Part shown: piece by piece, positions 1 through 9,375 of the stretch
Layout: each line of letters starts with the position of its first letter
Position numbering within the stretch: the first letter of the stretch is position 1
Origin: Streptomyces sannanensis
Lineage (GTDB): Bacteria; Actinomycetota; Actinomycetes; Streptomycetales; Streptomycetaceae
Assembly: GCF_039536205.1 (NCBI RefSeq)
Contig: NZ_BAAAYL010000001.1
Coordinates: forward strand, 2,604,001-2,668,000
Direction of reading: 5' to 3'
DNA length: 64,000 bases
Translations under genes and position numbers: made by a program
The notes under the pieces: model-generated
What the model saw: only the letters and a program-made list of their open reading frames with translations
What the model was told of the DNA's origin: nothing
Database searches by the model: none

Positions 1-2409
1 CGAGTCAGGGAGCTCGAGGAACCGCATGTCGTCGAAAGTGGGAACCGCGAAACCTGGTACACGGGCCCGCAGCCCAAGGATAAGTGCTGGCCGGCGATCG
101 TAAACCTGCTCCGGAAAGACAGCTGGTCGGAGCAGTCGGTCAAGAGTCTTGACGACTCCTCCTACCGCATCGTGTCGCTGCTCAACCACCCTCGGGAGAG
201 GTCCTTTTCTACGCGCGGCCTTGTCGTCGGTTACGTGCAGTCCGGCAAGACGACCAACTTCACGTCGGTTATGGCGAAGGCCGCAGACCGTGGCTACAAG
301 CTGTTCATCGTCCTGGCGGGCGTCCACAACGGCCTTCGCCGCCAAACGCAGATGCGACTGATCCAGCAGCTCGTGGAGCCGAATCCCACCTTGTGGTCCC
401 AGCTGACCGGGCTCGACAAGGACTTCACGCCACAGGAGAATCCGGCCTCGTATTTCGGCAAGAACAACAAGACGCACGTGCTGTGTGTGGTAAAAAAGAA
501 CGCCACGGTGCTGCGCAAGCTCGCTCGTTGGCTCGATCAGGCGTCGGAGTACCTGCAGGACTGCCCGGCACTGATCATCGACGACGAGGCAGATCAGGCG
601 ACCGTGGCGACGAAGTCGATCAACCCGCTGATCCTGAGCATCATGGAGAGTCTGCCGAAGTGCGGATATCTCGGCTACACGGCCTCTCCCTTCGCCAACC
701 TGCTGATCGACCCGAGTGCCGAGGACCTGTATCCCAAGGATTTCGTGGTCAACCTGCCGAAGCCTGCCGGTCATTTCGGCACAGAGGTCCTGTTCGGGCG
801 CTATGCGCTCGACGATGAGGATCCGGAGCAGGTCGACGACGGCTACGACATGATCCGGTCGATTCCCGAGGAAGACGTGTCGTACGTGCGGCCGGTCTCG
901 AAGGCTGACGTCGACGGCTTCGTGCCGGTCATCACCGACACCCTTCGCGAGGCCGTCGAGTACTTCTGGCTGGCCACGGCCGCGCGACGCGTGCGTGACA
1001 CGGGGAATCCGCATAACACGATGCTGATCCATACCAGCGTCAACACGGCAGTACACAACAGCTTCGAGCGACCGCTGGAGCGGCTGCGGGAACGTTCTGC
1101 GGCGAACTTGGCGGACCCCGGGTTCGTTGCTCGGCTGCGCGGCCTGTGGGATCGAGAGACCGCCCGCGTCGCAGCCGAGAATTTCCACGAGACGAAGGTG
1201 GAGTTCGACCACCTGCTTCCGAAGCTCCCGGGTGTCCTTGCGAGCTGCCGGATCATCATGGACAACTCCAGCAGTGAGGCCCGACTGGACTATGAGAACG
1301 GTCCGGTCGTGGCAATCGCAGTGGGCGGTAATACCCTCTCGAGGGGACTGACCCTTGAAGGCCTGTCGGTCAGCTACTTCGTCCGCTCCGTGTCGGCGTA
1401 CGACACGCTTCTACAGATGGGGCGCTGGTTCGGGTTCCGGAACGGATACGCGGACCTGCCGCGTATCTGGATGACCGATGAGCTTGCCGAGTGGTTCCGC
1501 CACATCGCCACCGTCGAGACGGAGATGCGCCGAGACATCAACGTCTACATGACGGAGGACGAGACACCGCTCACCTTCGCCGTGCGTCTTCGCACGCATC
1601 CGGCCATGCGTGTCACCGCGGCCGCCAAGATGCGGGATGCCGTCATGGCTGCCTCCGCATATGGCGGCAGGCGTGTTCAGACCCACTACTTCCACACCAA
1701 TGCCGACTGGCTGAGAGACAATCTCGCTGCCGCCCGCAAACTGGTGGACGCGTCCAAGCGCAATGCGGTGCGGGTGGAGGAACGCCCCGAGGGGGGTCGC
1801 TTCATCTTCCGTGACGTGCCGCACGAGCTCGTGACGGATTTTCTGACGTCATATCGATTCCACGAGAAGTCCCAAGAGAACGACGGCGAGCTGATCGCGG
1901 ACTACATCAAGAAGCGAGTACGCACGGCCAGCTCGTTGGGTAGGTGGAATGTCGCGATCGTCGGCCACCCCGACGGTACCAAGGATCAGCGTCTCAGCTT
2001 CGCCCCAGGCGTCACGGTCGGGCGCATCAGTCGCGCCCGCGTCGCCACCACCAACCCCACGCCTGACTTCGCCGACATCAAGACGCTGATGAGCCGCCGC
2101 GATGCCGCAGTCGATCTGGGAGGCGACACGGCCAAACTCGCGGAGAAGGAAATCAAGGCCGAGCGCCAGCGCCAGTTCCCCGACCACGGCTTGCTGGTCC
2201 TCTACCCGATCGACAAGGTCTCAACGCCCGAACCGTCCAAGCAACGGCGTGAGCCGCTGAACGCCGAAGAACACGTTATCGGCGTCGGCCTGGTCTTCCC
2301 GGAGCCGCGGGGCGAAGACAGCGCCGTGGCGAAATACATCTCCGCCGACCTCTCCGGGATCCAGATCGAGGACGAGGACTATAGCTTCCTCGACGGTGAC
2401 GGCGCATGA
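1..2409 (+). CDS. Z1-domain helicase-like protein of a restriction-modification system (5' truncated)
   Basis: The frame is open from the first base of the window, and the translation before the first GTG (169) or TTG-type starts still reads like protein (YTGPQPKDKCW..., SYRIVSLLNHP), so the true start lies upstream. A Walker A motif GYVQSGKT is at 229-252, a Walker B-like LIIDDEADQA at about 568-597, and a motif VI-like QMGRWFGFR at about 1411-1440. This set is typical of Z1 proteins, superfamily II helicase relatives found with MutL/MORC-type ATPases and methylases in predicted restriction systems. It overlaps the next gene by ATGA, so the two are translationally coupled. DNA translocation or remodelling as part of the restriction complex is inferred from the family. 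Confidence 0.85.
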   Translation, partial: RVRELEEPHVVESGNRETWYTGPQPKDKCWPAIVNLLRKDSWSEQSVKSLDDSSYRIVSLLNHPRERSFSTRGLVVGYVQSGKTTNFTSVMAKAADRGYKLFIVLAGVHNGLRRQTQMRLIQQLVEPNPTLWSQLTGLDKDFTPQENPASYFGKNNKTHVLCVVKKNATVLRKLARWLDQASEYLQDCPALIIDDEADQATVATKSINPLILSIMESLPKCGYLGYTASPFANLLIDPSAEDLYPKDFVVNLPKPAGHFGTEVLFGRYALDDEDPEQVDDGYDMIRSIPEEDVSYVRPVSKADVDGFVPVITDTLREAVEYFWLATAARRVRDTGNPHNTMLIHTSVNTAVHNSFERPLERLRERSAANLADPGFVARLRGLWDRETARVAAENFHETKVEFDHLLPKLPGVLASCRIIMDNSSSEARLDYENGPVVAIAVGGNTLSRGLTLEGLSVSYFVRSVSAYDTLLQMGRWFGFRNGYADLPRIWMTDELAEWFRHIATVETEMRRDINVYMTEDETPLTFAVRLRTHPAMRVTAAAKMRDAVMAASAYGGRRVQTHYFHTNADWLRDNLAAARKLVDASKRNAVRVEERPEGGRFIFRDVPHELVTDFLTSYRFHEKSQENDGELIADYIKKRVRTASSLGRWNVAIVGHPDGTKDQRLSFAPGVTVGRISRARVATTNPTPDFADIKTLMSRRDAAVDLGGDTAKLAEKEIKAERQRQFPDHGLLVLYPIDKVSTPEPSKQRREPLNAEEHVIGVGLVFPEPRGEDSAVAKYISADLSGIQIEDEDYSFLDGDGA

Positions 2410-3431
2410 CCGACAGCGCGTTTCGAAGGGTGGTCGAACAACACTGGTCCGCTCTCGAAGGTGAACAGACCAGCGGTGAAAGGAACCTGCGGGTCTCCTA
2501 CCTGCCCGTGAACACCGGAAGCGGTCCCTTGGCGGTGGGTGTCGATCACGACGGCCACCGCCACCTCCTCGTGCCGACCCACTCGCATCAGAAGGTCCGA
2601 GCGGGCCTGGACGGGCCTGTTCTTCGGCTGCGTAAGCGGCCCTTGGAGGACAAGGCGATCTATCAGACGTACGCCGACCTCGGATGCCTGCGAGGCGACC
2701 TTAACGACCTGTTCACGGAATTGTGCGTGGACGTTCTGGTCGTAGCCGAGAGCATGCCGCAAACCCCCGTCAAGGCTCTCTATCGCGTGCTCGACCGGTG
2801 GCGGGCACTGTTCCGCACGGAGAGCAAGCCGCTTGGGCCGGAACGGATTGCGGGCCTGTTCGGAGAGTTACTCCTCCTCACTCGGCTGCTGGAGCAAGAC
2901 CCGAGTGCTCACCGGTTCTGGCACGGTCCGCACGGTCACCGCCACGACTTCTCGACGGCGACCACCGCCGTCGAGGTGAAGTCCACCACAGTTGGTGAGG
3001 GACGTAGACCACGGATCCACGGGCTCGACCAACTGGAGCCACCAGCAGGCGGTGTCCTCTGCCTGGCCTGGTTCCGCCTCCAACGAACCAGCGCGGACGG
3101 CATGGGCACCGGGTTCATCGAGTCGATTGAACGGGCGCTTCGGCTTTGCGACGACGAGAGCGCGCTACTCGAACTGCTCGCCGCGGCCGGTTACCACTCC
3201 TCCGACGCCCATCACTACCGCGACGTGCGCTTCGTGATCAGCAAGGAGACATGGTATCGAGTCGACGCCGAATTCCCCGGATTGACGAGCCAAGCCCTCG
3301 CGTCAGCAGGTGTCCCGGTGACGATTCTCGAGGTCGAGTACACGGTCGACCTGTCCGGAGAACATCCGGTGCCGCTGACGCACGACACCGTATCCAAGGT
3401 GATCGACACCATGATCCAGGAGTCCGTGTGA
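2406..3431 (+). CDS. PD-(D/E)XK superfamily nuclease (DUF4420-like)
   Basis: This 341-residue protein is the likely DNA-cutting subunit of the island. The core reads E154 in LFGELLLL, D181 in HDFS, and E190-V-K192 in AVEVKST, which fits the E...D...ExK pattern of PD-(D/E)XK nucleases. A GLDQLEPP segment follows the ExK motif. Start and stop both overlap neighbours by 4 bp (ATGA, GTGA), placing it in the middle of the operon. The family is usually found with Z1 and GHKL proteins. Nuclease activity is inferred from these residues and is not certain. Confidence 0.8.
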   Translation: MTDSAFRRVVEQHWSALEGEQTSGERNLRVSYLPVNTGSGPLAVGVDHDGHRHLLVPTHSHQKVRAGLDGPVLRLRKRPLEDKAIYQTYADLGCLRGDLNDLFTELCVDVLVVAESMPQTPVKALYRVLDRWRALFRTESKPLGPERIAGLFGELLLLTRLLEQDPSAHRFWHGPHGHRHDFSTATTAVEVKSTTVGEGRRPRIHGLDQLEPPAGGVLCLAWFRLQRTSADGMGTGFIESIERALRLCDDESALLELLAAAGYHSSDAHHYRDVRFVISKETWYRVDAEFPGLTSQALASAGVPVTILEVEYTVDLSGEHPVPLTHDTVSKVIDTMIQESV

Positions 3432-5422
3432 CGGAGCCCCGCTGGTTGTCCCAGCCATTCCCGCCGGAAGGTGCAAGCGCGGCCGAAGGTATCCGTAACC
3501 AGCTCGGACGCCCCGAACTCGACCTGCTCACCATCTTGGTGCGGGAGTCCGCACAGAACAGTTGGGACGCGCGTCTGGAGGGCTCCTCCGAGCCGGTCGA
3601 CTATCGAATCGACCTGGGGACAATCAGCCCTGCGCACGTACGCGAGTGGCGTGCGCTGCTTCTGGGCGGGGCTCCGATATCCGCTCACCTCCCGCTGCGG
3701 GAATCGCTGATGCGTGGCGTGGTCCGAGTGATGACGATCTCCGACCGGGGCACCCGAGGTCTTGGCGGACCCACCAGAGCCGACGATGCCATCGGCGACG
3801 ACCGAGACTTCGTCTCGTTCATCCGCAACATCGGCGAACCGCGTAATACGGCTCTCGGTGGCGGAACTTACGGTTTCGGCAAAGGCATCTTCTATCTAGT
3901 CTCCAGATGCGGCACGATCCTGGTACACACGCGCTGCCGGACCGAGAAGGGCGGGTACGAGACCAGGCTCATCGGTTGTGCTCTGTGGAAGAGCTACGTC
4001 TCCTCAGGGCCTACCGGCGAACGTCGGTACACCGGCAGGCATTGGTGGGGCGATGCCTCGGGCCCGGCCGTCGAACCCCTTGTGGGGGCCGAGGCCGAGG
4101 TTACGGCCCGACGCCTCGGTCTCAAGCCGTTCGGTCCGGACGAGACGGGTACCACCATCGTGGTCATAGACCCTTCCCTTGAGGACCTCGAGCCCGAGGC
4201 AGCGGCCGACTACCTCGCGGAGACCGTGACCTGGCACCTGTGGCCGAAGATGATCGCCACTGGCACCGGACAGCCCGCGATGCGTTTCATCGTCGGTTGC
4301 GACGGCAGGAATCATCCGGTCCCCGACCCGCGGCAGACCCGCCCACTAGACATGTTCGTCGCCGCCTACGAGGCCATGCTCGGACCGAGCGGCACAAACA
4401 TCGAGTGCCGCAAACCCAAGAAGCACCTCGGCAGGCTGGGCCTTGTCACACGGATCATCCCCGCCCTCGAACCCAGCAGCGCCTCCTGCCTGCTCGGAAT
4501 CGAAGACCTCGTCCATCACGTTTGCCTCATGCGGCCAGCCGAGTTGGTCGTCACCTACTACCCCGGACCCAAGCCGCCGAGCGTGAACCAGGGCTACGCC
4601 GGCGTGTTCCGGGTAGACCCGGACATGGACGACGCGTACGCGAGGGCCGAACCACCGACGCACGACGCCTGGCACCCTCAGTCACTCGACTACCCAGATA
4701 GCACCTTCGTCCGAACGACGTTCCGGCGCATTCAAGAGCGGATCGACGGGCTGCTCGCACTTGGCGGGACCGCCCGCTCCGGTGCTGCCAAGGTCGCGCT
4801 GGGAGCAGCCAGTTCACTCTTCGCAGGGCTCGTGGGAGGCGCTTGGGGAATCGGCGGAGCCACCGACTACCACAGACCTGGCAACACGGCGACCCCCTCT
4901 TCGCGTGCTTCGGAGGTCGACGAACACGAGCTCCCTGAACCGATCGACCAAGGCCACCCCGCAGCGACCACCGGCTCGACCACCACCCACCCGATGTCAT
5001 GGGAGTCCGGCTCGGCAGGCGATGCCGATGCGGGTGTCGCGCAGGTCCCCGGAGCAGCGGCTCCCGGTGGTGAGTCCTTTCGCCGTCGCCCGCGCGTGCA
5101 GTACCTCGGCGACCCCTACTATGACGACGGTTCCGACACCCCCGTTCTAGTACAGGAGTTCAGGTTGCCCGTACCTGGGCGCCAGCGTGTTCGCGCCGAT
5201 CTGGCGGTCACTCTGCCGGGCAGCGGCGGACGAGAGTCCGATCCTCCCCTGGGCGCGCAAATGCCCGAGCTCGTCGGCTGGCAGGACGCCACGGGACGAC
5301 TCCACACCGAGCCGTCGTTCGAGATCGACGGTGGTAACGCCGTCTGGCGAGCCGTAGTCCGTCCGGCTCCTGACACCATGACCGAGATCGACATCAAGGT
5401 CGAGGCGGTGAGGGCCCAATGA
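3428..5422 (+). CDS. GHKL (MutL/MORC/HSP90-like) ATPase of the restriction island
   Basis: A GTG start at 3428 overlaps the nuclease stop (GTGA) and gives 664 residues. The N-terminal Bergerat fold is clear: E40 and N44 in VRESAQNSWDA (N box), D106 in ISDRGTRGLGG (motif II), and the ATP lid GGGTYGFGKG at 144-153. The C-terminal half, after about residue 480, holds a small Ala/Gly-rich hydrophobic stretch, a linker rich in Pro/Ser/Thr, and a final beta-rich section of unknown type. MutL/MORC-like ATPases in such operons are thought to act as ATP-driven clamps with Z1 and a nuclease. The open frame continues upstream of GTG 3428, but that part overlaps the nuclease gene and is not expected to be translated. 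Confidence 0.85.
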   Translation: MTEPRWLSQPFPPEGASAAEGIRNQLGRPELDLLTILVRESAQNSWDARLEGSSEPVDYRIDLGTISPAHVREWRALLLGGAPISAHLPLRESLMRGVVRVMTISDRGTRGLGGPTRADDAIGDDRDFVSFIRNIGEPRNTALGGGTYGFGKGIFYLVSRCGTILVHTRCRTEKGGYETRLIGCALWKSYVSSGPTGERRYTGRHWWGDASGPAVEPLVGAEAEVTARRLGLKPFGPDETGTTIVVIDPSLEDLEPEAAADYLAETVTWHLWPKMIATGTGQPAMRFIVGCDGRNHPVPDPRQTRPLDMFVAAYEAMLGPSGTNIECRKPKKHLGRLGLVTRIIPALEPSSASCLLGIEDLVHHVCLMRPAELVVTYYPGPKPPSVNQGYAGVFRVDPDMDDAYARAEPPTHDAWHPQSLDYPDSTFVRTTFRRIQERIDGLLALGGTARSGAAKVALGAASSLFAGLVGGAWGIGGATDYHRPGNTATPSSRASEVDEHELPEPIDQGHPAATTGSTTTHPMSWESGSAGDADAGVAQVPGAAAPGGESFRRRPRVQYLGDPYYDDGSDTPVLVQEFRLPVPGRQRVRADLAVTLPGSGGRESDPPLGAQMPELVGWQDATGRLHTEPSFEIDGGNAVWRAVVRPAPDTMTEIDIKVEAVRAQ

Positions 5423-6318
5423 GCCGTCGGGCACTCCCGTATCGAATCCCGTCCGAAGACGTCGTCCAGGTCGACCCCTGGGACCTGATCACCGACGACG
5501 GCCACGCCCCCATGCCCGAGGCGCTGCCTGACTGGGACTACCAGATGGATCTGCACCTGCGTAGAACGGTCCGGATCGACCTGGACCGAGCACGCTCCCA
5601 GGCAGGACTCCCGCCCGAAGCCGTGCTCATGCTCGCCGCCGTTTGGACGGCCACCGGCTCCAACCTCAGCGGCCCGGCCCAACACGTCCGCCTATCGGGC
5701 AGCGGGTCGGCCACCATCTCGCTCGACATCCGGCTTCGAGGGTCCGATCTGGGTGGACTCCTTCTCTTGGACACGGCCCTTCTACTCGCTGAAGGCCAGA
5801 GCAACGGCCGTCCGTCCGCGCCGCGCCGCGCCGGATCGGTCCTGTGGAGCCACCGCGCGCCCCTGAGGCTTCAGGGCGATGCGCCGCAATTTCCGATGGC
5901 GGTGATCGACTTCGGACGGACCTCCTTTCCAGACGGTGCGGCCTGGCACCTGCAGATCAGCGGCAATCTGGAGAGCGCGACCATGGGCTCGCTGCTTCTA
6001 CTGGTCAACGAGCGGAACACGGCCGTCGCCACTGCCTTCGAGAACGCGGGCAAGCCACGAGACATCGACAGGATCGTGCTGTCCGCGGTGTACGCTGACA
6101 CCGCACGGACCATGATCGAACACGCGCTGTCACTTGACGAGTTCGTCGATGGCGCCGACTTCCCGGCCGAGTCCCTCGGGGTGACCCTGACGGTTCTGTT
6201 CGACCAACTCTTTCCCGGCCGCTCGATCAGTGACATGAGGCTACGCCGACAGCAGTCACCGAGCCTGTTCGCCTCGGAAGTCCAGGAAGCCGTGAAGATC
6301 TTCGAGGTGTCGCGATGA
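5419..6318 (+). CDS. Uncharacterised core component of the Z1/GHKL island
   Basis: This 299-residue protein overlaps its neighbours by ATGA at both ends, so it is very probably a required subunit. I recognise no catalytic motif. The middle (about 80-190) alternates hydrophobic and polar residues, suggesting a beta-rich fold, and includes LSGSGSATISLDIRLRG. The C-terminal part is helical and ends in QEAVKIFEVSR. No signal peptide or membrane segment is visible. A scaffold or target-recognition role is possible, but only position supports it. Confidence 0.75.
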   Translation: MSRRALPYRIPSEDVVQVDPWDLITDDGHAPMPEALPDWDYQMDLHLRRTVRIDLDRARSQAGLPPEAVLMLAAVWTATGSNLSGPAQHVRLSGSGSATISLDIRLRGSDLGGLLLLDTALLLAEGQSNGRPSAPRRAGSVLWSHRAPLRLQGDAPQFPMAVIDFGRTSFPDGAAWHLQISGNLESATMGSLLLLVNERNTAVATAFENAGKPRDIDRIVLSAVYADTARTMIEHALSLDEFVDGADFPAESLGVTLTVLFDQLFPGRSISDMRLRRQQSPSLFASEVQEAVKIFEVSR

Positions 6319-8135
6319 GCTATCTCTACCCCCGGCTGCTCGCCGACCAGGCTCGGCGCCTGTTCGATGAATACGGCCAACTCTCGCTTGCCCAGCTCAC
6401 GAAGCGGAAGGCCACGTCCCACGACTCCGCCGTCTACGTCGCGACCGGAGGCGACCGGATCTCCGAGGCCCAACTCAACCGGTTGCGAGGCCTGGTGCTG
6501 GATCTCGCCGCGAATGCCGGATTTCCAGAGCCGGCCGGTCGCGCACGGAATGCCGAGTTCGACATCCGGCTCGCGGCCTTGTTGCACTCGGAGATGGGAC
6601 TGGTCCCCGCCGAAGCCGCTGCGCGGGACGTGTGGGCCTTCCTGGCTTTGGTCCTGCTGCCGGACGTGGCCTACTGGCGCTATCCCCAACCACCCAAGGA
6701 CCGCATCCTCGGCACGGATCTCACCCGACACGTCTTCGGTCGGCTGTGGTGGCGGGCTCAGCTCGTGCACTCCTCGGGGGACTCGGACCCCTACGGAGCA
6801 ATCGGAATCCTCGGTGAGGCCGCCTTCGACCAGATCTATGCCCGGCGAGCGGCACTCGGCGGAAGCCCGCACACGGTGAAGGCCATCCTGCGGGTCTGGA
6901 ACACACTCGATCTGCATGGCCTAAACGAACGCGAAGCTCTGCGCGACTTCCTCAAGAGAATGCTGCGACTCGCCCCGTTCGTTCTCTTCGACGGAATCGA
7001 GGAACATGCACTCGATGAGGAACTTCGGACCGTCGCACAGGGATCGGTGACAGCGCTGCTAAGAGTGTCCTTGCCGGAGTCCCCCTCGCCAGGAATATCG
7101 GATCAGGCCTCCGCGCCGGTCCCGTCGCAGTCCGCCGCCCGGTCAACGGGTGATGCTCAGCATGAGGCATCGTCACGGCTCTCCTCGCTGGAGATCTGCG
7201 CCGGGTCTGGAGCTCAGGCACTCGGGCTCGAACGCGCGGGCTTCGAGCCGATCCTCCTACTCGACCGCAACCCCAAAGCGTGCGCGACCATCTCCCTCAA
7301 TCGCCCCCACTGGAACGTGCGCTGCAGCGAGATCGGGGACTTCGACCCTCTGCAGCACCGAGAGGCGCTACAGCTGGACCTGCTCAGCGGCGGCCTGCCT
7401 CGAATCAAGTCGGCAGCCGCAGGGCGCAGGGCCGACGACGAGGAGCCACGCAAGGTGCTCGAAGCCGCCCTGCGACTGGTGAACCTCCTCCGGCCCAAGG
7501 CAGTTCTCCTCGAGAACCTCGCCGACCTCGTCGCGAGTCCCGATTTCGCCGCTGACCGTTCCCGGATCGAAGCCGAGCTGGCGCAAGCCGGCTACCATTC
7601 GAACTGGGCGGTACTCGATGCCGCTGACTTCGGCGTGCCCCAGCACCGGAAAAGCGGATTCCTCGTCGCTCTCCTCGAACCTTTCAGTTCCGGTTTCTTC
7701 TGGCCGGAGCCCACCGGCACGCCCGCGCCGACCGTTGGTGAAGTGCTCGGTGCTTCCATGGCCAGCCACGGTTGGCCCGGTGCCGACACCTGGTCCGCGC
7801 GAGCCGATCGCGTGGCGCCCGCACTCGTAGGTGGCTCGGAGAACCGAGGCGGGGCGGACCTGGGCCCCACCGGAAGCAAGCGAGCCTGGAACGCTCTGGG
7901 AGTCGACGGCAACAGCCTGGCAGATGATCCCCCGGGCGCCGGCTTCCCGGCGGACGGGCACCCCAAGCTCACGGTGAGGCAGGCGGCGATGATCCAGGCG
8001 ATCCCCGACGATTGGCAGCTCGCTGGCGGCAAGACAGCCGAGTACAGGCAGGTCGGCCATGCTCTGCCACCGCCGGTCGCCGAGGCCGTGGGCCGCGCGA
8101 TCGCCTGCGCGCTCAAGGCTGCCGAGCGAGTATAG
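6315..8135 (+). CDS. Unknown N-terminal domain fused to a catalytically degenerate cytosine-5 methyltransferase
   Basis: Residues 1-250 form a helical domain that resembles the DUF6339 type found with Z1 operons (from memory, moderate certainty). Residues 290-606 carry a C5-methyltransferase fold: motif I LEICAGSGA (292-300), a motif II-like LLDRN, motif VI LENL (E400), a motif VIII-like VPQHRKS, and motif X YRQVGHALPPP. In motif IV, where active enzymes have Pro-Cys, the protein reads GGLPRIKSAAAG with Arg363 (codon 7401-7403) in place of the nucleophilic Cys. The motif VI Asn is Leu, and QxRxR has become QHRKS. The fold and SAM pocket look kept but methyl transfer is predicted to be lost. 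A regulatory or DNA-recognition partner for the following methylase is inferred. Confidence 0.82.
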   Translation: MSYLYPRLLADQARRLFDEYGQLSLAQLTKRKATSHDSAVYVATGGDRISEAQLNRLRGLVLDLAANAGFPEPAGRARNAEFDIRLAALLHSEMGLVPAEAAARDVWAFLALVLLPDVAYWRYPQPPKDRILGTDLTRHVFGRLWWRAQLVHSSGDSDPYGAIGILGEAAFDQIYARRAALGGSPHTVKAILRVWNTLDLHGLNEREALRDFLKRMLRLAPFVLFDGIEEHALDEELRTVAQGSVTALLRVSLPESPSPGISDQASAPVPSQSAARSTGDAQHEASSRLSSLEICAGSGAQALGLERAGFEPILLLDRNPKACATISLNRPHWNVRCSEIGDFDPLQHREALQLDLLSGGLPRIKSAAAGRRADDEEPRKVLEAALRLVNLLRPKAVLLENLADLVASPDFAADRSRIEAELAQAGYHSNWAVLDAADFGVPQHRKSGFLVALLEPFSSGFFWPEPTGTPAPTVGEVLGASMASHGWPGADTWSARADRVAPALVGGSENRGGADLGPTGSKRAWNALGVDGNSLADDPPGAGFPADGHPKLTVRQAAMIQAIPDDWQLAGGKTAEYRQVGHALPPPVAEAVGRAIACALKAAERV

Positions 8136-8223
8136 GCGGCGTCACCTGGCCATCCGGTTCGAAGAACCGATCCCGCCGGCTAGCATAGGGGCGATCTGTG
8201 TCCGCGACGACGGGAGAGCGGGC
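8136..8223 (+). promoter_or_regulatory. Gap before the second methylase, possible own promoter
   Basis: All earlier genes of the island overlap by 4 bp, but here 88 bp separate the genes. The stretch holds a -10-like TAGCAT at 8181-8186 and a ribosome site GGGAG at 8212-8216, 7 bases before the ATG at 8224. No convincing -35 box is visible. Separate transcription of the methylase would be useful for protecting host DNA before the nuclease is made, but this is inference. Confidence 0.3.
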
Positions 8224-9375
8224 ATGGACCGGAGCTCTCCCGCACCTCCAGAACCGCAAGGAAACCGCGTGCCTGCGCCCTTCAAGATCATCGACCTGTT
8301 CGCCGGCCCGGGAGGGCTGGACGTGGCAGCGCAGGCGCTCGGCGTTCCGGTCGTCGTCGGTATCGAGTGGGACGACGACGCCTGCGCTACACGCACGGCA
8401 GCCGGCCTCCCGACGAAAAACGGGGATGTACGCGATTTCAAGCCGAGCGATTTCGAAGACGCCAACGTGTTGGCCGGCGGGCCGCCGTGTCAGACCTTCA
8501 CCGTCGCCGGGAACGGTGAAGGAAGGGCCGCGCTCGATCAGGTTCTTGAATTCGCGAATCGTTATGCTGCCGTGCAGCCGGGGCGCCACGACGAGGAGTT
8601 CGCGGCGATTCGCGACGACCTCAAGCAGCTCAGCGACGAACGTACCGGACTGGTCCTGGAACCGCTGCGGTGGGCACTTGAGGCGCTCATCGACGGACGG
8701 CCTTACCAGGCGATCGTCCTCGAACAGGTTCGTGCGGTACTCCCGGTCTGGCAGGCGTTCGGGGAGATCCTCAAGAGCAAGGGCTACACGGTAGCCGACC
8801 CGGAGATCCTCCACACCGAGGAGTTCGGGGTTCCTCAGACCCGTCGTCGCGCCATTCTGATTGCCCGCTGGGCGGGCGATGGCGCGAAGATCGAGGAGGC
8901 GCCGGAGATTCCCGAGCCTTCTCACCGACGTTACAGGAAGGGTGCCAATCGAAATTCGGGGAATTCATCCCGCCTTCCCTGGGTGACAATGCGGGAGGCG
9001 CTCGGGCGAACGGACTGCTTCGAGGTGGTCTCCAACTACGGCACCGGCGGTAACCCGAAGGCACGAGGACGACGCCGGTACGACGAGCCTTCCGCCACCG
9101 TGACCGGCAAGGGTTCACGCAACAAGCTCGACTGGCGTGGCCGGGACCTCGGGGTGTTCTCGCTCGCTGAGCTGGGTGTACTTCAAACGTTCCCCCGGGA
9201 CTATCCGTGGCGACGCGAAAACGGCGACGACGTCGACGCTCCCGGTGCACGCAGCGTCATTGCCCAGCAGATTGGCAACGCCGTGCCGCCACGGCTGGGC
9301 ATACATGTCCTCGCGTCCGCGCTCGGTTTGCACGAAGAGCTGGAAGCCGCGATCAAGCTCCAGTACGACTACTGA
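8224..9375 (+). CDS. DNA (cytosine-5)-methyltransferase, active-site complete
   Basis: The start at 8224 is chosen because GGGAG lies 7 bases upstream and motif I begins 24 residues in; longer in-frame starts overlap the previous gene and add non-conserved residues. The product is 383 residues. Motif I is DLFAGPGG (24-31), motif IV GGPPCQTFTVAG holds the nucleophile Cys89, motif VI is LEQV (E167, with Gln in place of the usual Asn), motif VIII is PQTRRR, and motif X is QIGNAVPP. It should methylate cytosine C5 at the system's target site and protect host DNA. About 70 residues between motifs IV and VI form a longer insert than in small enzymes. Confidence 0.93.
   Translation: MDRSSPAPPEPQGNRVPAPFKIIDLFAGPGGLDVAAQALGVPVVVGIEWDDDACATRTAAGLPTKNGDVRDFKPSDFEDANVLAGGPPCQTFTVAGNGEGRAALDQVLEFANRYAAVQPGRHDEEFAAIRDDLKQLSDERTGLVLEPLRWALEALIDGRPYQAIVLEQVRAVLPVWQAFGEILKSKGYTVADPEILHTEEFGVPQTRRRAILIARWAGDGAKIEEAPEIPEPSHRRYRKGANRNSGNSSRLPWVTMREALGRTDCFEVVSNYGTGGNPKARGRRRYDEPSATVTGKGSRNKLDWRGRDLGVFSLAELGVLQTFPRDYPWRRENGDDVDAPGARSVIAQQIGNAVPPRLGIHVLASALGLHEELEAAIKLQYDY

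Follow-up and report, generated by a model that had tools for sequence, protein, structure and literature searches.

What does a six-gene operon at the start of a 64,000-nucleotide stretch of the Streptomyces sannanensis genome do, and what part is played in it by a cytosine-C5 methylase fold that has lost its catalytic cysteine? The stretch (contig NZ_BAAAYL010000001.1, positions 2,604,001 to 2,668,000; hereafter the window) opens with six genes on the forward strand, of which the first five overlap by 4 bp each and the sixth follows after 88 bp, a layout given in a preliminary description of the sequence and confirmed by the coordinates. From its genes and their predicted structures, the operon looks like a DNA-restriction defence system, and the pseudo-methylase carried by gene 5 is probably a reader of DNA and not a writer of marks.

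Gene 5 (6315..8135) joins a DUF6339 domain (6561..7025) to a C5-methylase fold (7185..8102). All the C5-methylase motifs sought are present in this C-terminal half except the catalytic cysteine of motif IV, whose place is taken by Arg363 (codon 7401..7403; GGLPR for GGxPC), which bears out the earlier designation of this protein as a pseudo-methylase. Gene 6 (8224..9375), judged by its motifs, is a type A 5-methylcytosine DNA methylase: motif I reads DLFAGPGG, motif IV GGPPCQTFT, motif VI VLEQV and motif VIII PQTRRR, the cysteine within GGPPCQ being Cys89 (codon 8488..8490, counting from 8224). The cytosine methylation motifs and two methylase-fold proteins described previously are thus both present, one protein intact and the other without its cysteine.

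Related loci were collected through gene 4, which is present in all of them by construction. After removal of five duplicates (L017, L018, L024, L025 and L027) there were 87, including the window's own; of the 87 stretches confirmed in a scan of named species genomes, the best 80 gave 79 distinct loci. Within the loci, 59 relatives of the pseudo-methylase score above 120 bits, a set that includes four duplicate fused rows. Arginine stands at the motif IV place in 50/50 fused and five stand-alone proteins, cysteine stands there in three (L033, L040 and L044), and one piece of the L085 protein lacks the place. The other piece of that protein reads arginine; this separate pseudo-methylase (L085:1653-2683) is split over two frames, through either decay or an assembly error. 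Database relatives carry arginine in 120/120 cases in both of two overlapping searches (the best 120 of 525 and the best 120 of 3,206). Measured against two relatives, the pseudo-methylase has ratios of non-synonymous to synonymous substitution rates (dN/dS) of 0.133 and 0.158; gene 6 gives 0.131 and 0.112, and the remaining parts fall in the range 0.08-0.18. Gene 5 as a decaying pseudogene is ruled out by the absence of a stop, by purifying selection and by the retained arginine. Its predicted pseudo-methylase fold (mean predicted local distance difference test score, 79.9) matches plant MET1, DNMT1 and M.HaeIII in a structure search. Cysteine mutants of C5 methylases are known to bind DNA tightly.

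The pseudo-methylase is fused to DUF6339 in 46/87 loci and is a separate gene in 6/87, all of them Nocardia. A tree of methylase domains, built from 51 of 86 rows and omitting the distant active ones together with most of the fused Streptomyces forms, rejects one single fusion event (one clade of fused forms, approximately unbiased test P value (p-AU) 6e-112) and requires at least three switches between fused and separate forms. In the same tree the arginine group makes one clade of 43 rows, with L026 and L102 placed apart. A single cysteine-to-arginine origin including these two is not rejected (p-AU 0.187), and the change may have arisen once or twice. At L033:16034-18817 and L040:16093-18801 a close relative that keeps the cysteine adjoins a type A methylase, and the two neighbours together perhaps represent the ancestral pair of active enzymes. 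Eight loci carry an alternative tail of 228-248 residues on the DUF6339 protein; among four tails scanned, DUF3320 passes its cut-off only in L069 (28.4 bits); L033 and L040 give sub-threshold scores, and L059 gives no match. L076 has HTH_3 as its tail (33.7 bits).

The rest of the operon is a conserved core. In 84/87 loci, genes 1-4 share a strand with the DUF6339 portion of gene 5, and the overlaps between successive genes 1-5 recur in 67/87 or more at each junction (73/84, 78/84, 72/87 and 67/87); 4 of the 84 loci sort in a different gene order, which we put down to stop-to-stop frame reading. The expectation that the six genes travel together holds for this core and, at 86/87 loci, for a C5 methylase with its motif IV cysteine, but the pseudo-methylase accompanies them in only 52/87. 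The one exception for the C5 methylase (L037) stops at a contig edge; the count considers motif IV only, and a few of the genes are cut by a contig end. By comparison, the family background is 59 PF00145 match rows in 41 genomes at E <= 1e-15, a cut-off that misses weaker genes, some rows being two halves of one gene; we estimate the chance presence of a methylase within a 20-kb locus at about one percent or less. Gene 1 (1..2409, its first residues cut off by the window start) matches PF10593 at 222 bits and keeps Walker A GKT and Walker B D-D-E in 87/87 loci. Gene 2 (2406..3431) is by family matches and motifs a DUF4420 PD-(D/E)XK nuclease, MzaD-like, with an E-D-ExK motif kept in 84/84 loci having the gene, so that both the P-loop Z1 protein and the ExK nuclease of the first description stand. 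Gene 3 (3428..5422) encodes a GHKL (Bergerat) ATPase, its boxes conserved in the alignment across loci. It gave no Pfam match among 28 gene 3 proteins scanned, no match in the Protein Data Bank (PDB) by sequence search and none to MORC models; of the earlier likening to MutL/MORC-type systems, the Bergerat-fold ATPase is upheld, but these searches lend a MORC assignment no support. Gene 4 (5419..6318) matched no known family, as had been supposed, and nothing in the PDB by sequence search. Its predicted fold is a beta sandwich followed by C-terminal helices, for which Foldseek returned only general beta sandwiches (best E 1.5e-4; template modelling score by query length at most 0.28 among 50 listed). 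Fifty gene 4 proteins compared with PADLOC gave two weak AriAB matches only (best E 0.058).

Several observations weigh against a restriction system with a reading pseudo-methylase. No pseudo-methylase was found in 35/87 loci within the stretch fetched, some stretches ending early, which means that the core does not depend on it. The restriction-island interpretation is partly supported. Gene 2 is absent from L020, L075 and L088, and gene 4 remains an orphan with no function assigned. Between dead and active relatives the recognition region is better conserved than motifs I-VIII (0.484 against 0.415), the order being reversed between active ones (0.579 against 0.626), but only four active sequences entered the comparison. 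In addition, motifs IX-X, at 0.589 between dead and active, are as conserved as the recognition core, so the contrast holds against motifs I-VIII only. The pseudo-methylase also keeps one kind of recognition region, whereas the partner methylases are of two distinct types, A and B; a target common to gene 5 and gene 6 would therefore be an assumption of the reader model. Finally, a looser search found a third, more distant C5-methylase-like gene in the genome (G000:C1:2191129-2192595; L170:5084-6664, minus strand) with the motif IV variant SPECTNH, so gene 6 need not be the sole source of 5-methylcytosine. Our confidence in the reader model is unchanged by this, because the model allows for other methylases beside gene 6.

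The alternative that survives best, though we think it rather unlikely, is that the pseudo-methylase regulates the intact methylase as its partner, steering modification and not restriction. Such partners are familiar from DNMT3L, which serves DNMT3A, and from bacterial C5 methylases built of two chains, in the form of their second subunit. The arrangement of the genes fits this idea: a cysteine-bearing methylase gene lies no more than 500 bases away in 49/52 core loci with the pseudo-methylase, and one is present in 51/52 of these and in 15/17 other loci. However, gene 6 has motifs I, IV, VI and VIII of its own, and the cysteine-bearing gene is 7.2 kb off in L041 and 2.7 kb off in L055. Moreover, it is the core component DUF6339 to which the pseudo-methylase is joined; no fusion to a cysteine-bearing methylase occurs in the tables examined.

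It is improbable that the operon serves an epigenetic or DNA-maintenance role on a mobile island. The block from -6122 to 9377 of the window aligns with another genome (G374) at 81-88%, with no further similarity (E <= 1e-10) on either side in the stretches compared, and its right edge falls two bases past the gene 6 stop, which fits a mobile cassette. No clear synteny emerged when an empty site was sought using the right flank. Directly upstream, on the same strand, lies a WD40-repeat protein of 1229 residues (L003:72-3758; window -3928 to -242) with a P-loop read by eye; its gene is inside the block common to G374 and L029 and outside the reach of the L041 alignment. This block of about 15.5 kb, with flanks differing between two relatives, and the sporadic distribution of gene 4 (10/150 family and 5/296 phylum genomes, each count including that of the window) would suit mobile cargo of any kind. 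A non-defence role is disfavoured by the combination here of a nuclease, a motor and a methylase, and by the presence of the same pseudo-methylase next to DISARM-like and NERD-helicase genes.

Very improbable, in our view, is that the operon is a diverged member of MZA, reportedly an anti-phage system, and nothing more. Genes 1 and 2 are MzaC-like and MzaD-like, but in NCBIfam they score far under the cut-offs (390 of 1500 bits, gene 1 lacking its first residues, and 92 of an equivalog cut-off of 420 bits). MzaA, MzaB and MzaE do not occur among the listed matches of the six proteins, which comprise the best 25 PADLOC families out of 52 for gene 5 and out of 57 for gene 6. No model of MzaE, a further MZA component, turned up in any scan. 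The operon here has instead the methylase pair, gene 4 and DUF6339, and plain membership of MZA was rejected on these scores and missing parts. MzaB is matched by the MORC protein of L147 but not by gene 3, whose match is to PDC-M33A. To the PADLOC candidate PDC-M33 the likeness is weak and lies in the GHKL protein (model A, 30 bits) and DUF6339 (model C, 29 bits); models A and C were seen, B is implied by naming only, and gene 4 and its relatives matched no PDC-M33 model. At L139:13656-17162 a GHKL protein is fused to sigma-70 regions 2-4 and HTH_3, the sigma part matching MzaA, which may connect MZA with the PDC-M33-type trio. Least probable is a type IV-like, modification-dependent system in which the pseudo-methylase senses foreign 5-methylcytosine-type marks and triggers cutting: a fold without the nucleophile could conceivably accept or sense 5-substituted cytosine, but with a cysteine-bearing C5 methylase in nearly all loci, the host would itself be a target if its marks were the same as the foreign ones.

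Other systems resemble the operon in part; the search of defence models foreseen in the preliminary description gave MzaC and MzaD matches below the MZA cut-offs, weak PDC-M33 matches and a match to DruM2. Among PADLOC models (best 25 of 52 families), the methylase half of gene 5 scores highest with DruM2, the cytosine methylase of Druantia (335 bits), but the catalytic cysteine is lost and genes 1-4 match no Druantia model. The arginine pseudo-methylase adjoins DrmA/DrmB-type genes of DISARM in four loci (L142, L143, L149 and L154), and genes 5 and 6 show weak matches to DrmMII methylase models, none above 82 bits among those listed, but no DrmA or DrmB match is listed for the six window proteins. 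Of the three loci that lack DUF4420, L020 and L088 also have DrmA and DrmB genes nearby, as do L055 and L084, in which DUF4420 is kept. Iyer, Abhiman and Aravind (2008; PMC2292703) described a third operon type that combines a superfamily II helicase, whose C-terminal domain is distinct (DThhQXuRhFG motif), a restriction endonuclease-fold protein, MORC or paraMORC and a DNA methylase; the part of that paper at hand mentions no DUF6339 protein, gene 4-like orphan or conserved dead methylase, and gene 3 here lacks a MORC match. CglI and NgoAVII (PMC4267653) differ in that their nuclease is a phospholipase D (PLD) enzyme with its own B3 domain, and the available portion of the article mentions no GHKL, DUF6339 or dead methylase. 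The Corynebacterium island (PMC5379612), in the sections seen, has a methylase fused to an Xre helix-turn-helix and an EcoRII-like nuclease, unlike the operon here, and also three unclassified proteins. The claim to novelty rests on searches of the open-access literature, outside which most subscription papers lie; these found no paper for DUF6339 or PDC-M33, a single one for DUF4420 and, by title among the papers listed, nothing related to Mza and nothing on topic for pseudo-methyltransferases with restriction.

We therefore favour a restriction-like defence operon with two methylase folds of different fate. The catalytically dead methylase domain of gene 5 would read DNA in place of marking it.
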